Shown one piece after another: positions 5,184 through 12,628 of a stretch of DNA of 64,000 bases. The notes below the pieces were generated by a model. The model ran no database searches and was not told the DNA's origin. It worked only from the letters and a program-made list of their open reading frames with translations. Origin of the DNA: Desulfarculaceae bacterium (lineage in GTDB: Bacteria; Desulfobacterota; Desulfarculia; Desulfarculales; Desulfarculaceae); assembly GCA_020444545.1 (NCBI GenBank), contig JAHLKT010000008.1, positions 124,001 through 188,000 on the forward strand, read 5' to 3'. The stretch's first letter is position 1. Every line of letters begins with the position of its first letter. Both the position numbers and the translations under genes were made by a program.

Positions 5184-6467
5184 CTAGCTGTCCCCATTTT
5201 CCTCGATATTGAATATACGTCTAACTAGAGCTAACTGTTCTCTCCTGGTGTCCTCGCTCTTGTCGTGGCTGGCGTGCTTTACGAACATGATGGGGTCGTG
5301 GATGAGCTTCTTGACCAGGGCCAAGGTGAGGCGATCCAGGGCGGCGGCCTGCTCCGGGTCGCTGATGCCCAGGTCCTTGAGGGTGCGGCTCAGCTCGGCG
5401 GCGCGAATACCCTCGGCCTTGGCGCTCAGGGCGCTGATGGTGGGCACCGCTTCCAGGCCCTTGAGCCAGGCCATGAACTTGACCACCTCCTGGGCCACGA
5501 TGCTCTCGGCCTCCCCGGCGGCCTCGGCCCGGGAGGCCTTGCCCGCCTCCACCACCGAGCTCAGATCGTCGATGTCGTAGAGGTAGCAGCCGTCCAGCTC
5601 GCCCACCGCGGGCTCCACGTCGCGGGGCACCGCGATGTCGATGAAGAACAGGGGCCGCCCGCGCCGTTTTTTAAGGGCCGAGCGGGCCATCTCCAGGGTG
5701 ATCACCGGCAGCATGGAGCCGGTACTGGCGATCACGATGTCCACCTGGCCCAGGAGCTTGGGCATGTCCTTGAGCTCCAGGGCCTCGCCGCCAAAGGGCC
5801 GGGCCAGCTCCACCGCCCGCTCCAGGGTGCGGTTGGCCACCAGAACCCGGCCCGCGCCCTGGCCCACCAGGTGCTCCAGGGCCAGCTCGGCCATCTCCCC
5901 GGCCCCCACCACCATCACCGCGAGGCCCTCCAGGGAGTCGAAGATCTTTTTGGCCAGCTCCACCGCCGCGAAGGAGATGGACACCGCCGCCCCGCCGATG
6001 TTGGTTTCCGAACGCACCCGCTTGGCCACCTGGAAGGTCTTGTGCAGCAGGCGGTTCAGGACCGCGCGGCTGGTCCCGGCCATGGCCGCCGTGCGGTAGG
6101 CCTCTTTTATCTGGCCCAGAATCTGGGGCTCGCCCACCACCAGGGAGTCCAGGCTGGAGGCCACCCGGTAGAGATGGCGCACCGCGTCGGTGTCCTGGTG
6201 GGTGTAGAGATGGGGCGCGATCTCCTCGGCGGCCACCCCCCGGCCGTGGGCCAGCCAGCGGGCCACCTCGCCGGGGTCGGCGTCTTCGTCCATCACCGCC
6301 AGGGCCTCCACCCGGTTGCAGGTGGAGACCAAAAAGGCCTCGCGCACCCCGGGCAGGGCCGCGCAGCGCTCCAGCTCGCCGCCCACCGCCTCGGGCGGCG
6401 GGGCCAGACACTCGCGCACCTTGAGCGGCGCGCTCTTGTGGCTCAGGCCCACCAGAACGAGCTTCAC
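5184..6467 (-). CDS. hemA: Glutamyl-tRNA reductase
   Basis: A 427-residue NADPH-dependent enzyme that reduces glutamyl-tRNA(Glu) to glutamate-1-semialdehyde, the first committed step of C5 tetrapyrrole synthesis. The catalytic Cys50 lies in STCNRVE, next to the canonical SHKSAP segment at residues 9-14. GEPQILGQIKEAY is the family signature. MVVGAGEMAELALEHL is the NADPH-binding turn, and the C-terminal part is the helical dimerisation domain. Length is typical. Its start overlaps the stop of the upstream ccsA/hemX gene by 4 bases (ATGA type), so translation is coupled. The last residues (NIEENGDS) run into less GC-rich sequence next to the foreign gene at 4668. Confidence 0.97.
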   Translation of the reverse strand: MKLVLVGLSHKSAPLKVRECLAPPPEAVGGELERCAALPGVREAFLVSTCNRVEALAVMDEDADPGEVARWLAHGRGVAAEEIAPHLYTHQDTDAVRHLYRVASSLDSLVVGEPQILGQIKEAYRTAAMAGTSRAVLNRLLHKTFQVAKRVRSETNIGGAAVSISFAAVELAKKIFDSLEGLAVMVVGAGEMAELALEHLVGQGAGRVLVANRTLERAVELARPFGGEALELKDMPKLLGQVDIVIASTGSMLPVITLEMARSALKKRRGRPLFFIDIAVPRDVEPAVGELDGCYLYDIDDLSSVVEAGKASRAEAAGEAESIVAQEVVKFMAWLKGLEAVPTISALSAKAEGIRAAELSRTLKDLGISDPEQAAALDRLTLALVKKLIHDPIMFVKHASHDKSEDTRREQLALVRRIFNIEENGDS

Positions 6468-7309
6468 GGCGTGGTCCCCCCGAAGCCCGCCAGGGAGGCG
6501 AAACTATGGTAGCTGGGGAACAGCAGGCCCGCGCCCAGGAAGGTGAAGACCAAGGCCGCGAAGGCGATCAGGGCCAGCCAGGCCCCCCGGCGGCCGCGCC
6601 AGCCCTGCACCAAGCGGGTGTGCAGCAGGGCGGCGTACAACAGCCAGGTGATCAGGGCCCAGACTTCCTTGGGGTCCCAGCGCCAGTAGGAGCCCAGGGT
6701 TATCTGGGCGTAGACCGCGCCGGTGATCAGGCCGATGGTCATGAGCAGAAAGCCCGCCACCAGGCTGGTGTGGCTCAGTGAATCCAGGCGGCCCAGGCTG
6801 GGCAGGCGCTGGAAGGCCGGGCCCAGCTTCTTGGCGCGCAGGGCGTGATCCTGCACCAAATAGAGCACCCCGCCCAGGAAGGTGAGGGCCAACAGGCCGT
6901 AGCCCGCCATGATGGAGAGCACGTGCAGCACGATCCACAGGCTCTTGAAGGCCGAGCTGGTCACGCCCTCCACCTTGGGCAGCACCGAGGCGGCCAGGAG
7001 CATCAGGGCGCAGAGCGGCCCGGCCACCGCGCCCATGATCTTCATCTCCAGGCGCAGGTTGATCACCAGGGCCGCGCCCATGATGGCCCAGGAGAACAGG
7101 TCCAGGGACTGGCGCAGGTTGGCCGCGGGCAAGACCCCGCTCGATATCCAGGCGGCGGCCAGGGCCGCGCTGTGCAGGCCGAAGCCGACCCACAGCAGGG
7201 CCAGGCCCATGCGGTAAAGCCCATGGCGTTGCTTGAACAGATAGCCCATGGAGACCAGGCCGCCGAAGACATAGGCGGCCAGGGTGGCCCAGTGCAAGGC
7301 GGTGCTCAC
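6464..7309 (-). CDS. ccsA: Cytochrome c assembly protein, CcsA/HemX family
   Basis: A 281-residue integral membrane protein with about eight helices. The haem-handling WWD-like signature is present at residues 206-217 (LGSYWRWDPKEVW), with conserved His129, His180 and His230 around it. Family members either deliver haem to apocytochrome c (CcsA of system II) or act as HemX, which affects glutamyl-tRNA reductase levels. The position directly before hemA fits HemX. No CcsB/ResB partner is seen in this window. Both junctions overlap by 4 bases with the flanking sirohaem and hemA genes, so the three are one translational unit. Confidence 0.88.
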   Translation of the reverse strand: MSTALHWATLAAYVFGGLVSMGYLFKQRHGLYRMGLALLWVGFGLHSAALAAAWISSGVLPAANLRQSLDLFSWAIMGAALVINLRLEMKIMGAVAGPLCALMLLAASVLPKVEGVTSSAFKSLWIVLHVLSIMAGYGLLALTFLGGVLYLVQDHALRAKKLGPAFQRLPSLGRLDSLSHTSLVAGFLLMTIGLITGAVYAQITLGSYWRWDPKEVWALITWLLYAALLHTRLVQGWRGRRGAWLALIAFAALVFTFLGAGLLFPSYHSFASLAGFGGTTP

Positions 7310-8737: not shown

Positions 8738-9316
8738 TTACCCCTTGGCTGCGGCGTTGGCGGTGAACTCGTCCAACAGGCGCTTCTGGTCGGCGACCTG
8801 CACCGCCGCCTTGAGCTTTTCCTCGGCCAGTTCGGCGGCCAGGCCGACGATCTCCCGGGCCAGCTTGCGCTTGGCGTCGGCGAGGTTCATCTCCGCCTGG
8901 AGCTTGGCCCGGTCCACGATCATCTCGGACTCGGACTGGGCTTCCTCCACCATCCGGGCGCGCTCGCGCTCGGCGCTTTGGGCCAGGATGTTCTCGAACT
9001 CCTCGAGCTCGGCGGCCATGCCCGCGGTCTTTTCCTCGATGACCTTGAGCTGGGCCTCGGCCTCGGCCTTGGCCTTGTTGACCTCTTCCAACTCGGCGGC
9101 CACCTGGGCCTTCTGGCTGCTGAAGAAGTCCTTCAAAGGCTTCTTGGCCATCTTGACGATGAGGAAAGCCAGGACCAGGAAGTTGATTATTTTCCAGCCC
9201 CAGTCCCAATAGACCTTCCAGGCCGGCGGAGCGGCCGCTTGGGAGGCCAGGGCCGGTTCGGCGGCCAAAAGGAGCGCCGCCAAAAGCGCCAGGGCTGTCA
9301 GATGGATGGCTTTCAC
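8738..9316 (-). CDS. atpF: ATP synthase F0 subunit b
   Basis: A 192-residue peripheral-stalk subunit. It begins with a 25-residue signal-like segment (HLTALALLAALLLAAEPALAS), then the true membrane anchor (IINFLVLAFLIVKM), then a long charged coiled coil (residues 65-185, KAEAEAQLKVIEEKTAGMAAEL and following). The b subunit links the membrane a/c motor to F1. Together with the b' gene just upstream it forms a heterodimeric stalk, as in photosynthetic bacteria and many Desulfobacterota. The two genes overlap by 4 bases. The extra N-terminal hydrophobic segment may be cleaved; this is inference. Confidence 0.93.
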   Translation of the reverse strand: MKAIHLTALALLAALLLAAEPALASQAAAPPAWKVYWDWGWKIINFLVLAFLIVKMAKKPLKDFFSSQKAQVAAELEEVNKAKAEAEAQLKVIEEKTAGMAAELEEFENILAQSAERERARMVEEAQSESEMIVDRAKLQAEMNLADAKRKLAREIVGLAAELAEEKLKAAVQVADQKRLLDEFTANAAAKG

Positions 9317-9741
9317 GAGACCTCCCTGCCCAGCACGCGGCTGGCCATGGTGGTGGCCACCGCCTCGGCTTGGGCGCGTATCTCGCCCTGGGCCTGAGCC
9401 ATCTCGGCCTGAATGCCGGCCACCAGCTTGTCCGTCTCGACCCGGGCTTTGGCCTGGGCCTCGTCGATCACCCGGCGGGCGTCTTCCTCGGCCTTGCGCC
9501 GCACCTCTTCGAGACGGTCGCGCACTTGTTGACGGCCCTGTCCCAACTGCCGCTGGTACTGGCTCTGGCTCTCGGCCGCCTGGTCCTTGAGGGCCACCGC
9601 TTCCGCAATGCCCCCCTTGAGGGTGACCGAGCGCTCTTCGATCATCTTGGCCAGTGGCTTATACATTATCTTGTTAAGGATAAAGATAAGCACCAGCAGA
9701 TTGACGATCTGCACCAGCAGCGTGGCGTTGATACTGATCAT
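9313..9741 (-). CDS. atpF': ATP synthase F0 subunit b'
   Basis: A 142-residue partner of subunit b. The single N-terminal membrane helix is residues 5-24 (NATLLVQIVNLLVLIFILNK), followed by the conserved MYKPLAKMIEERS turn and a coiled coil to residue 142. It is the second strand of the peripheral stalk. The ribosome site GGAGGAGGTCGG lies upstream of the ATG at 9741. Order c - b' - b matches the split F0 operons in which F1 (atpHAGDC) is encoded elsewhere; no F1 gene is seen in this window. Confidence 0.93.
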   Translation of the reverse strand: MISINATLLVQIVNLLVLIFILNKIMYKPLAKMIEERSVTLKGGIAEAVALKDQAAESQSQYQRQLGQGRQQVRDRLEEVRRKAEEDARRVIDEAQAKARVETDKLVAGIQAEMAQAQGEIRAQAEAVATTMASRVLGREVS

Positions 9742-9760: not shown

Positions 9761-10009
9761 CTAGACCACGAAGATCAACAGCAGCGCCACCACCAGGGAG
9801 TAGATGCCGGTGGACTCGGACACTGCCTGACCTACCAGCATGGTGCGGGTCAACAGGCCCGCTTCCTTGGGGTTGCGGCCGATGGCCTCGCAGGCCTTGC
9901 CCGCCGCGAAACCCTCGCCCACGCCGGGGCCGATGGCGCCCAGGCCCATGGCGATGCCCGCGCCCATCAAGGCGGCCGCTCTCACCAGATCCGCGCCTTC
10001 AATGGCCAT
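9761..10009 (-). CDS. atpE: ATP synthase F0 subunit c, single hairpin, putative Na+ type
   Basis: An 82-residue proteolipid with two helices (residues 8-40 and 52-82) joined by the polar loop R45-N-P. Ion-site residues can be read in Ilyobacter numbering without gaps: Glu32 (GVGEGFAAG), Gln61, Glu65, Ser66, Thr67 ([12 protein letters not shown]). Glu65-Ser66-Thr67 is the Na+-type liganding pattern. Glu instead of Gln at 32 gives two carboxylates per site, as reported for the Fusobacterium nucleatum Na+ rotor. The ion used is therefore inferred to be Na+, with H+ not excluded. It lies 57 bases after the fused five-hairpin paralogue; the last hairpin of that protein is its closest relative here. 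Confidence 0.95.
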
Positions 10010-10066: not shown

Positions 10067-11287
10067 TTAAATCACAAACAGAAGCAGTAGAGCCACGATC
10101 AGCGAGTAGATGCCCGTGGACTCGCTGACCGCCTGACCCACCAGCATCACCCGGGTAAGGAGCACGCTGACCCCTTCCGCGTTGCGGGCGATGCGGTTGA
10201 CTGTGTAGGCCGCGGCCAGACCCTCGCCCACCCCCGGTCCGATGCCGCCGAAGCCCATGCAGATGCCGGCCGACAGAGGCGCCACCCAGGCCACCATGGT
10301 CTCGGAGGCCTCGCGGGGGATGAACAGAAGGATCAGGCTGACCAAAAATCCGTAGATGACCGTGGACTGGGCCACCGTCTGGCCGATGAGCATGGTGGTG
10401 GTCACCGGGCCCGAGGATTCGGGCACCCGGGCGATGCCCGCTGCCGCTTCCTGGGCGGTGAAACCGTTGCCGATGCCGGGGCCGATGGCCGATAGGCCGG
10501 TGGACAGGCCCGCGCCCAGCAGGGCGGCCCAGGTGGGCCAGGGCGGGCTGTTGGACCAGTCCACGAACATGAGCATGAAGGCCACCACCATGCCGAAGAT
10601 CGCCGGGGTCTGGCTGACCGCCGAGCCGATGAGCATGTTGGTGCGGATGGAGGTGGCCGCCGCCGGCTGGCGGGCCATGCCCGCGGTGGCGCTGCCGGCG
10701 GGCATACCCGAGCCCACGCCCGAGCCGATCGCCGCCAGGCCCACGGAAAGGCCGGCGCCCATGACCGCCGCCCAGCCGGGCCACAGGGGCTGGGCCGACC
10801 AGTCGATGAACATGAGCATGAAGGCCACCACCATGCCGAAGATCGCCGGGGTCTGGCTGACCGCCGAGCCGATGAGCATGTTAGTGGTCAGGGCCCCCTG
10901 GGTGGGGGGGTTGTCGGCGATGCCCACGCAGGCCTCGGCCGCCGGGAAACCGCCGCCGGCGCCCGAGCCGATGGCGCTGAGGCCCATGGCCAGGCCGGAG
11001 GCCAGCAGGGACCAGGCCTCGATCATGGGGGCGCCCTCGACGTTCATGAAGGCCAGGAGCATGGCGATGACCAGGGCAAAGATGCCCGCGCTCTCCGCCA
11101 CCGCCTGGCCGATGAGCATGTTCTTGAGGATGGCCCCGCTCATGGCGGGGTTCCTGCCGATGGCCCGGGAGGCGTTGCCCGCGGCGTAGCCCTCGCCCAG
11201 GGCGGCGCCGATGGCGCCGAAGCCCACCGAGAATCCGGCCCCCAAGAAGGCTGCGGCCTGTACCCAAGTTTCCGTGCTAAAGGCCAT
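10067..11287 (-). CDS. Five-hairpin fused ATP synthase c subunit
   Basis: A 406-residue protein that is five c-subunit hairpins in one chain, about 81 residues each (1-85, 86-166, 167-247, 248-328, 329-406), giving ten membrane helices. The helix-2 glutamate is kept in hairpin 1 (Glu65, VAESAG) and hairpin 5 (Glu389, VSESTG). It is Gln in hairpins 2, 3 and 4 (Gln145, Gln226, Gln307). The helix-1 carboxylate follows the same rule: Glu32 and Glu355 are kept, but the middle hairpins have Gly112, Ser193 and Asn274. So two of five ion sites look functional. Hairpins 2 and 3 share an identical 75-base DNA block. The gene lies between atpB and the normal atpE, so both proteolipids should be made together. 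Multi-hairpin proteolipids are known from V-type enzymes, Acetobacterium woodii and Methanopyrus; this 2-of-5 design is the notable point. Confidence 0.93.
   Translation of the reverse strand: MAFSTETWVQAAAFLGAGFSVGFGAIGAALGEGYAAGNASRAIGRNPAMSGAILKNMLIGQAVAESAGIFALVIAMLLAFMNVEGAPMIEAWSLLASGLAMGLSAIGSGAGGGFPAAEACVGIADNPPTQGALTTNMLIGSAVSQTPAIFGMVVAFMLMFIDWSAQPLWPGWAAVMGAGLSVGLAAIGSGVGSGMPAGSATAGMARQPAAATSIRTNMLIGSAVSQTPAIFGMVVAFMLMFVDWSNSPPWPTWAALLGAGLSTGLSAIGPGIGNGFTAQEAAAGIARVPESSGPVTTTMLIGQTVAQSTVIYGFLVSLILLFIPREASETMVAWVAPLSAGICMGFGGIGPGVGEGLAAAYTVNRIARNAEGVSVLLTRVMLVGQAVSESTGIYSLIVALLLLFVI
10565..10639. repeat. 75-bp direct repeat, copy 1 (inside fused c gene, hairpin 3)
   Basis: Identical over 75 bases to 10808-10882, 243 bases (81 codons) away and in the same frame. 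It covers the helix-2 region NMLIGSAVSQTPAIF and the following helix. Confidence 0.9.
10808..10882. repeat. 75-bp direct repeat, copy 2 (inside fused c gene, hairpin 2)
   Basis: Partner of 10565-10639. The exact identity at synonymous positions points to a recent internal duplication or gene conversion between hairpins 2 and 3. Confidence 0.9.
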
Positions 11288-11297
11288 GAAGCGATTC

Positions 11298-11969
11298 CTA
11301 CTTGGTCTGAACCGAAATGTAGACCAGGGTCAGCATGGTGAACACGAAGGCCTGAATCGTCCCCACGAACAGCCCGAAGAAGGCGTTCAAGGCCGGCGGC
11401 AGAATCAGGCTGTAGACCAGGTCGCTCACCACCAGGATGATGATCGAGCCGCCCATGATGTTGCCGTAGAGACGGAAGGAGATTGAGACCACCTTGGACA
11501 GCTCACCGATGATGTTCAGCGGGGCCATGAAGAACATGGGCTGAACGTACTCGTTGAGGTAGGCCTTGAGGCCCTTGGTCTTAATGCCGGCGTAGTGGGC
11601 GATGAAAAAGCCCAGGATGCCGTAGGCCAAGGGGGTGTTGAGGTCCTTGGTCGGTTCGCTGAGCCCCGGGATGACCCCCAACATGTTGCTGAGCCAGATG
11701 AACAGGAACACGGTGATGATCAGGGGGAAGTAATGCCGGTTGTTTTCGTCCAGGGCGTCGTCGACCAGGCCCTTGAAGGCGCTGACCATCACCTCGCCCA
11801 AGGTCTGCCAGGGGCCGGGGAGGAAAGCCAGCTTTCGGGTGGACATGAGGCCGAAGGCGATTATCACGCCCATCACGATCCAGGACATGATCAGCGTCTC
11901 GGAGTTGAACTCCAAGCGGTATCCGCCCAGGGACAGGTACCAATGCGGTATGTTGGTCAGCTCGTTCAC
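11298..11969 (-). CDS. atpB: ATP synthase F0 subunit a
   Basis: A 223-residue stator subunit that forms the ion half-channels against the c ring. The essential arginine is Arg166 in SISFRLYGNIMGG. WLSNMLGVIPG and FFGLFVGTIQAFVFTMLTLVYI are further family signatures, the latter being the C-terminal helix facing the rotor. About five to six helices are predicted. It is typical of the short bacterial a subunits. It ends 10 bases before the fused c gene. Its partner is thus a rotor that may contain silent positions, so compensating changes in this subunit would be expected but none is obvious by eye. Confidence 0.96.
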   Translation of the reverse strand: MNELTNIPHWYLSLGGYRLEFNSETLIMSWIVMGVIIAFGLMSTRKLAFLPGPWQTLGEVMVSAFKGLVDDALDENNRHYFPLIITVFLFIWLSNMLGVIPGLSEPTKDLNTPLAYGILGFFIAHYAGIKTKGLKAYLNEYVQPMFFMAPLNIIGELSKVVSISFRLYGNIMGGSIIILVVSDLVYSLILPPALNAFFGLFVGTIQAFVFTMLTLVYISVQTK

Positions 11970-11973
11970 GGCG

Positions 11974-12390
11974 CTATTTGCTCTCGCTAGGGGAACCCAC
12001 CAGACGCCCGCCCAGGAAGCGGTCGCTTAGAAGGGTGAACTGAACCATGAAAAGTCCCGCCGCGACGGCCAAGGGGGCCACCCGGGCGGGCATGGACAGA
12101 GCCACGGCCAGGGCCGCGGCCATCAGGCCGAAGCGCAGGGCCACCGAAACCACGGTGAAGGCCTGGCCCCGGCGGCGGGCCGGATCCAGGGCCCGGGGCA
12201 GCAGCCAAGCCATTACCAGGAAGTTGGCCACCGAGGCCACCGCTCCCAGGGCGACGCCCCGGGCCCAGGGGGCCTGGCCGACCAGGACGAGCACCAGGGC
12301 CGCGCCCACGGCGAACAACAGGGCCCGGGTGATCACCTGTTTGATGAACACCCCATTAGGACCCTCAGTCTTTGTCGCCGTCGGGTTCAC
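11974..12390 (-). CDS. atpI: ATP synthase subunit I (AtpI-like)
   Basis: A 138-residue four-helix membrane protein (segments near 22-42, 46-66, 84-104 and 108-125) of the ATP synthase I family. These proteins help assemble the c ring or supply Mg2+/Ca2+ and are often encoded first in F0 operons. Its start overlaps the end of the atpZ-like gene by 26 bases, and it ends 4 bases before atpB. Sequence conservation in this family is low, so the call rests on topology and position. As an assembly factor it may be needed for the unusual proteolipid here. Confidence 0.8.
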   Translation of the reverse strand: MNPTATKTEGPNGVFIKQVITRALLFAVGAALVLVLVGQAPWARGVALGAVASVANFLVMAWLLPRALDPARRRGQAFTVVSVALRFGLMAAALAVALSMPARVAPLAVAAGLFMVQFTLLSDRFLGGRLVGSPSESK

Positions 12391-12628
12391 CTTGATTGTC
12401 GTCCTCGGGGTTCAACCCCAACTCCGAGATCTGGCGGTAGACGGTATAGCCCCCTCCCGCTATGCCCAGCAGAATGAAGACCACCATTAAGATCTTCTTG
12501 GCGCCAAGCCATTCGCCCAGCCAGTAGCCCACGAATAGGCAGAACAACACCGACCCGGCGAAGGTCAGGCCCACCTGCATTACCAGCGCCAGGTGGTCCC
12601 ATACGGCTCTTGGCGGCCTGCTGAACAT
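12365..12628 (-). CDS. atpZ: AtpZ/AtpI-type F0 accessory protein
   Basis: An 87-residue protein with two membrane helices (near 12-36 and 43-63) and an acidic tail (NPEDDNQGEPDGDKD). The pattern FVGYWLGEWLGAKKILMVVFILLGIAGGGYTVYR matches the AtpZ (ATPase gene 1) family, with a conserved Gly-rich second helix. It is the first gene of the F0 operon. The likely promoter is 53 bases upstream. The start ATG follows AGCGGGCAGGA. Confidence 0.85.
   Translation of the reverse strand: MFSRPPRAVWDHLALVMQVGLTFAGSVLFCLFVGYWLGEWLGAKKILMVVFILLGIAGGGYTVYRQISELGLNPEDDNQGEPDGDKD

Follow-up and report, generated by a model that had tools for sequence, protein, structure and literature searches.

A fused five-hairpin c subunit from Desulfarculaceae points to a probable gapped, Na+-coupled F-type hybrid rotor that uses the same F1 as another rotor

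The 64,000-nucleotide stretch of Desulfarculaceae bacterium DNA analyzed here (assembly GCA_020444545.1, contig JAHLKT010000008.1, positions 124,001 to 188,000; hereafter the window) encodes, at 10067..11287 on the minus strand, a 406-residue ATP synthase c subunit in which five c hairpins are fused into one chain (the array). The pattern of its ion sites, the placement of its helper ligands and the gene content of the genomes that carry such arrays indicate that it probably belongs to a Na+-coupled, gapped F-type hybrid rotor. This rotor would share the canonical F1 of the cell with another one, for which H+ is the predicted ion.

Fused c hairpins and their ion sites

Five ATP-synt_C (PF00137) stretches were detected in the array by Pfam (whole-protein E 5.3e-67), and the hairpins are about 81 residues long, the last with one extra loop residue. 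Alignment of the hairpins pairs the site residues of the first and second transmembrane helices (TM1/TM2) as E32/E65, G112/Q145, S193/Q226, N274/Q307 and E355/E389. In this E-Q-Q-Q-E pattern the TM2 carboxylate is kept at the array ends alone, with E32 and E355 as the second carboxylates, and the array thus departs from the one-per-hairpin rule of F-type c subunits. The open reading frame, Pfam and the hairpin alignment agree with a first-pass annotation, made from the letters of the window, on the five hairpins, on all residues listed and on the loss of three carboxylates from hairpins 2-4. An AlphaFold2 model (16 family members) is all helical (pLDDT 93, pTM 0.90), and the closest solved structure by both sequence and fold is the Acetobacterium woodii c1 subunit, 4bem chain J (sequence match E 1.3e-26; fold match rmsd 1.3, TM 0.82 by target length).

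Arrays of this kind are widespread in the phylum. A match at E <= 1e-40 was present in 35/395 genomes drawn from it, and a one-genome-per-species scan returned 121 relatives, the best 80 of which are all labeled Desulfobacterota or an older name of it; isolates are included, with arrays in Desulfosarcina widdelii, Desulfosarcina alkanivorans, Dethiosulfatarculus sandiegensis and Desulfocarbo indianensis. The search for homologues that the first-pass annotation had proposed, with the hairpins of each aligned, yielded 107 distinct arrays of 3-6 hairpins (455 hairpins in total), every one of them from Desulfobacterota. The commonest patterns are E-Q-Q-Q (40 arrays), E-Q-Q-E (37), E-Q-Q-Q-E (10) and E-Q-Q-Q-Q (8), and the rarer ones E-Q-Q-Q-Q-Q (5), E-Q-E-E (3), E-Q-E-Q (3) and E-Q-Q (1); two further E-Q-Q arrays, beyond the 107, lie in genomes G079 and G229. 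The window array is thus no lone novelty but one form of a phylum-wide family. No relative of the array was found on viral contigs, and viral carriage was rejected on that ground.

Position 65 is Glu in 163 of the 455 hairpins and Gln in the other 292, with no third residue, and in all 107 arrays hairpin 1 is of the Glu type and hairpin 2 of the Gln type. None of the 292 Gln hairpins has the TM1 carboxylate E32, whereas 159/163 Glu hairpins do; the silent sites mostly stand 2-5 in succession, five at most, and their loss is not random. Pairwise dN/dS, a rough value here as it was obtained by a simple counting method on high-GC sequence, is about 0.04-0.34 in every hairpin, Gln hairpins included. 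These values and the Gln-only substitution led us to reject pseudogene decay, and purifying selection, the Gln-only rule and the conservation of ligands described below together point to a working rotor.

Placement of the helper ligands

In the Na+ ring of Fusobacterium nucleatum, E32 and E65 from one subunit bind the ion together with V63 and S66 from its neighbor, and T67 and Y70 assist (PMC3692424). In the Enterococcus hirae proteolipid NtpK the carboxylate, Glu139, lies in hairpin 2 and a helper ligand, Thr64, in hairpin 1 (PMC2359735), so that the helper comes earlier in the chain than the hairpin with the carboxylate, and T67 and Y70 are therefore expected only in array hairpins that stand before a Glu hairpin. 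The arrays follow this expectation closely: Y70 occurs in 156/163 hairpins before Glu or the array end as opposed to 1/292 before Gln, and T67 in 150/163 as opposed to 1/292, although these counts are not independent, the arrays being homologous. With internal neighbors only, Y70 is present in 49/56 hairpins before Glu and in the same 1/292 before Gln. Hairpin 1, despite its Glu site, has F70 in 107/107 arrays because a Gln hairpin comes next, and the last hairpin carries S-T-Y or S-K-Y in 107/107 and S66-T67-Y70 in 106/107, so that the hairpin following the array in the ring should be of the Glu type. An array whose hairpins lie in sequence within a functional ring would be expected to have such a Y70 pattern. 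A. woodii c1, which is probably of separate origin, obeys the same rule, its Glu hairpin 1 having F70 and its Gln hairpin 2 keeping T67 and Y70. The opposite direction of sharing, in which the next hairpin is the donor, was rejected, as Y70 is found in 12/113 hairpins preceded by Glu.

Glu is present at hairpin 3 in the E-Q-E-Q and E-Q-E-E arrays (loci L027, L028, L030, L061, L068 and L129). Most of their hairpin-2 donors are without T67, and the restored hairpin 3 site may for this reason be incomplete.

Composition of the ring

The array is followed by a gene for an 82-residue single-hairpin c subunit (9761..10009, minus strand) with the complete two-carboxylate Na+ motif E32 V63 E65 S66 T67 Y70 (ligand list from PMC3692424). 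A single-hairpin c gene with E32/E65 comes after the array in every locus long enough to show it, and all six residues, the Na+ ligands of the F. nucleatum ring, are carried by 97/97 single c subunits; within the array, hairpin 1 is without T67 and Y70 and the Gln hairpins are without carboxylates. One locus, unlike the others, has two single-hairpin c genes behind the array (L086, 8976-9610).

One operon of the window thus combines the two components that mark a hybrid rotor of the A. woodii type, namely a multi-hairpin c subunit with Gln at the lost site and a single c subunit. Because the genes are co-located, the ligands at the array end fit and A. woodii provides a precedent, we infer from the sequences that the array and the single c join in one hybrid ring. 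That the ring is very probably not made of the array chain alone follows from the regular presence of the single Na+-type c gene in every sufficiently long locus. Rings of array chains only (e.g. two five-hairpin or three four-hairpin chains), with the single c serving a separate ring or assembly, are an unlikely alternative but the one that survives best: the S66-T67-Y70 set of the last hairpin would also complete the hairpin 1 Glu site of a second array, and array-only K subunits are known, that of Methanopyrus kandleri having 13 hairpins in one chain (PMC2359735). This alternative is opposed by the position of the single c gene, with its full Na+ motif, directly behind the array, and by the A. 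woodii ring, which holds both kinds of subunit (4bem chains A and J).

An F0 operon without its own F1

The remaining genes of the operon, all on the minus strand, are an atpZ-like ATPase_gene1 (12365..12628), the assembly factor atpI (ATP-synt_I; 11974..12390), subunit a (atpB; 11298..11969), in which the stator arginine is present and which falls in a clade separate from the second canonical a of the genome, and the peripheral stalk subunits b' (9313..9741) and b (8738..9316), the latter being the last F0 gene, with no F1 genes after it. The order Z-I-a-array-c-b'-b is conserved among array loci. Pfam identifies F-type partners (PF00119, PF00430 twice, PF03899 and PF09527), in keeping with the F-type assignment made at first pass; no V/A-type partner subunits occur in the window operon, only F-type a, b, b', I and Z.

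F1 genes are absent from the window operon, and their distribution elsewhere is informative. The genome itself (100% complete, 11 contigs) has PF00137 in the window, in a standard I-a-c set on contig C3 and in an N-ATPase on C2, and F1 alpha/beta genes only on C7 (b'-b-delta-alpha-gamma-beta-epsilon) and in the C2 N-ATPase; the window F0 is therefore without an F1 of its own, and it carries its own b'/b, as do array F0s in other genomes. Two canonical a subunits are encoded in 31/31 array genomes, ten of which also have an N-type a, and one canonical gamma per genome in the same 31/31 (split over contig ends in G020 and G189); canonical delta is single in 16/16 array genomes checked, and 18/20 array-less control genomes have a single a.

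In six genomes (G079, G090, G186, G229, G321 and G178, where the contig ends after delta) the array F0 heads the F1 operon, and the second a/c pair is placed elsewhere, without b genes. Genome-wide, a single b'/b pair above the cut-off was found in G079, G090, G178 and G229, so that in these four both a/c modules share F1 and stalk, or one is idle. The two types of a form separate clades (supports 0.87 and 0.88). The stator Arg is kept in 94/94 array-type and 16/16 ordinary a subunits, and positions R+8/R+9 are acidic or His in ordinary a and Gly and mostly Ser/Ala in array-type a. Ordinary c subunits mostly have Q32, with E65, S66, L67 and Y70 and without T67, and the ring of the second a/c module is predicted from its motifs to carry H+. 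The array F0 would use the single canonical F1 of the cell in vivo, and many sulfate reducers appear to run a gapped ring and an ordinary ring on the same F1, an arrangement that would provide two gear ratios. The first-pass annotation had overlooked the single-hairpin c gene, the ligand-sharing pattern and the F1-less operon, as well as the probable sharing of one F1 between two F0 modules, which may well be the more important point.

It is improbable that the array F0 operates independently of F1, or that it is a by-product with no function or with a regulatory one, e.g. a Na+ leak or an assembly scaffold. Such a role would suit the absence of F1 genes both from the window operon and downstream of the array F0 in 57/57 loci having >4 kb of downstream sequence (among 80 named loci), but it is at odds with the six genomes that have the array F0 in an F1 operon, four of them without another b'/b pair, and with the purifying selection, Gln-only substitution and ligand conservation that indicate a working rotor. 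Even less credible is a pairing of the array F0 with the F1 of the N-ATPase rather than the canonical F1. The genome does encode a complete N-ATPase with a fused b/delta gene (G000:C2:511400-518200, L046) beside the canonical F1 and both canonical F0 modules, but this enzyme already has its own a, c and fused b/delta gene, and 21/31 array genomes are without a third, N-type a.

Next to the F0 operon lies a cytidylate-kinase-like gene (PF13189; 8122-8730), which adjoins the operon in this genus and is nearby in several other lineages. Beyond it are heme-related genes, assigned by reading their translations. A 415-codon open frame at 5265-6512 (plus strand), antisense to a hemA-like gene, is probably a shadow of the high GC content and not a gene.

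Integrity of the array gene

Nine additional genomes from the genus and family carry an intact five-hairpin E-Q-Q-Q-E gene with 78-96% identity, and one of these genomes has it on a single contig of 4.5 Mb; in two more relatives the gene is cut by a contig end (G007) or has an extra partial duplication in hairpin 1 (G014). The TM2 halves of hairpins 2 and 3 (window 10557-10645 and 10800-10888) share 94% DNA identity, which might mislead an assembler, but the array recurs in independent genomes, isolates and single-contig genomes among them, and an assembly or sequencing artefact of separate atpE genes can be dismissed. The frameshift or assembly collapse that the first-pass annotation had named as a threat to its reading is likewise excluded, because the gene is conserved and intact in those independent genomes.

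In some species the hairpin 2 and hairpin 3 TM2 halves are closer to each other than to their counterparts in related species, which suggests ongoing gene conversion between them. The JdFR-95 array (L025 1363-2637, L080 1536-2810) has a short tandem duplication in TM1 of hairpin 1, with AALGEGYAAGIAAQSM occurring twice, which is either real or an assembly fault.

Relation to known rotors

The nearest known counterpart is the Na+ F1F0 hybrid rotor of A. woodii, which is F-type like the arrays, combines the multi-hairpin c1 with a single-hairpin c in the same ring, and places Glu in the first hairpin of c1 and Gln in the second. However, c1 has two hairpins and one silent site, whereas the arrays have 3-6 hairpins and mostly 2-5 consecutive silent sites. 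When the hairpins are placed on a tree, those in first position fall together in a single clade (support 0.91), and the A. woodii c1 hairpins group with the c subunits of F. nucleatum and Ilyobacter tartaricus (support 0.86). The A. woodii hairpins are also without one TM1 residue common to the arrays, the single c and the ordinary c of the genome. Common descent of the array with the A. woodii fused subunit is thus not borne out by the hairpin tree or the TM1 indel, short as these sequences are. Because A. woodii c1 groups with Firmicute and Fusobacterial c subunits and differs in the TM1 indel, there is moderate evidence, drawn from sequence comparison, that F-type hybrid rotors arose at least twice. 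In Clostridium aceticum, also of the c1 type, the c genes and F1 are reported to lie in one cluster (PMC7911925).

The F. nucleatum ring (3zk1) shares E32, V63, E65, S66, T67 and Y70 with the single c and with Glu hairpins at the end of the array but, unlike the array rotor, is homomeric and single-hairpin, with no silent sites. Among V/A-type proteolipids, NtpK (2bl2) and the M. kandleri K subunit are fused hairpins as in the arrays, and many V-type forms have lost carboxylates; NtpK also has its helper Thr64 in the hairpin preceding the Glu, as in the arrays, while all 13 hairpins of the M. kandleri K subunit keep their ligands (PMC2359735). V/A-type enzymes differ in that the a, b and F1 partners of the array are F-type. 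The array system resembles an N-ATPase as a second rotary ATPase beside a canonical one and in the E32/E65 of its single c, but the N-ATPase has its own F1 and a fused b/delta, whereas in the window operon b' and b are separate genes and F1 is absent.

Discussion

In the mechanism that we propose, the 406-residue array would be an F0 rotor subunit that forms, with single c subunits, a Na+-coupled hybrid c ring. Each working site would be built from two adjoining hairpins, one giving the carboxylates and the preceding one V63, S66, T67 and Y70, so that full sites would lie on each single c and on either end of the array. The run of Gln hairpins in mid-array would carry no ion, and this neutral, silent sector could face the lipid ion-free. 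The gapped rotor would have its own a, b and b' and borrow the only canonical F1 of the cell, on which the second a/c module (Q32/E65, no T67, predicted H+) would also work.

Such a rotor would carry fewer ions per turn than a normal ring of the same size and would sustain, or need, a steeper gradient per ATP. By way of illustration rather than measurement, 11 hairpins made up of one five-hairpin array and six single c subunits would give 8 ions per turn (2.7 per ATP), and two arrays with one single c would give 5 (1.7 per ATP), as compared with 11 (3.7 per ATP) for a plain ring of 11. The first-pass annotation had likewise expected fewer ions per turn, which is sound if the array enters the ring and is backed by the ligand-sharing pattern; the lower ion/ATP ratio that it derived is unreadable from E-Q-Q-Q-E alone, because a single-hairpin Na+-type c gene follows the array. 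There would be no ion-driven step in the silent sector, where rotation must come from F1 torque or elastic energy. This would favor ATP-driven pumping, and a shift in that direction is possible, while remaining compatible with synthesis; hybrid-rotor acetogens are held to synthesize ATP, with a reduced Na+/ATP stoichiometry under discussion (PMC7911925). The rotor is probably reversible, and which way it turns would depend on the Na+ gradient and on the phosphorylation potential.

The predicted Na+ specificity of the array rotor would accord with other features of these bacteria. Rnf-type subunits encoded in the genome are a possible source of a Na+ gradient; two adjoining Rnf/Nqr-type membrane subunits lie at G000:C2:768432-769609. 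For six Desulfobacteraceae strains, an Rnf2 that pumps Na+ and is both abundant and constitutive has been reported (PMC11887813), which would fit a Na+ circuit.

Several points weigh against this interpretation. The ligand counts come from related arrays, and the tree of four-hairpin arrays (site columns masked) has just two switches of the last site, both of which coincide with the predicted hairpin 3 change. One clade of six arrays is without Y70 although Glu follows. Hairpin 1 loses T67 and Y70 as predicted, so that its own site needs an assumed external donor. The hybrid ring is proposed from gene sequences, and motifs are the basis for assigning Na+ to the Glu sites and H+ to the other ring.

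A wider proposal, which we would as readily see fall as stand, is that the rotors are exchangeable. Many Desulfobacterota would then switch one F1 between a predicted full H+ ring and a sparse Na+ ring, changing both the ion and the ion/ATP ratio, with array length (3-6) and the number of silent sites tuning this ratio between lineages.

One silent hairpin in an F-type hybrid rotor is already known. In open-access text we found no mention of F-type c arrays with several hairpins from Desulfobacterota, a 2015 survey of hybrid rotors that may list some being outside this coverage; nor did we find there an F-type chain in which 3-6 hairpins include as many as five silent sites in a row, a phylum-wide spread of such chains among anaerobes, or their occurrence alongside a second a/c module on one F1.

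How steep a gradient an ATP synthase needs is set by its count of ion sites per turn. Known F-type rings vary the ion count by ring size, and the A. woodii ring does so by one silent hairpin. The arrays show that rows of up to five silent hairpins have evolved in F-type chains, and they make it testable whether a rotor can pass a long silent sector while coupled and whether one F1 can serve two rotors with different ions. Both questions matter for understanding how sulfate reducers subsist on little energy.
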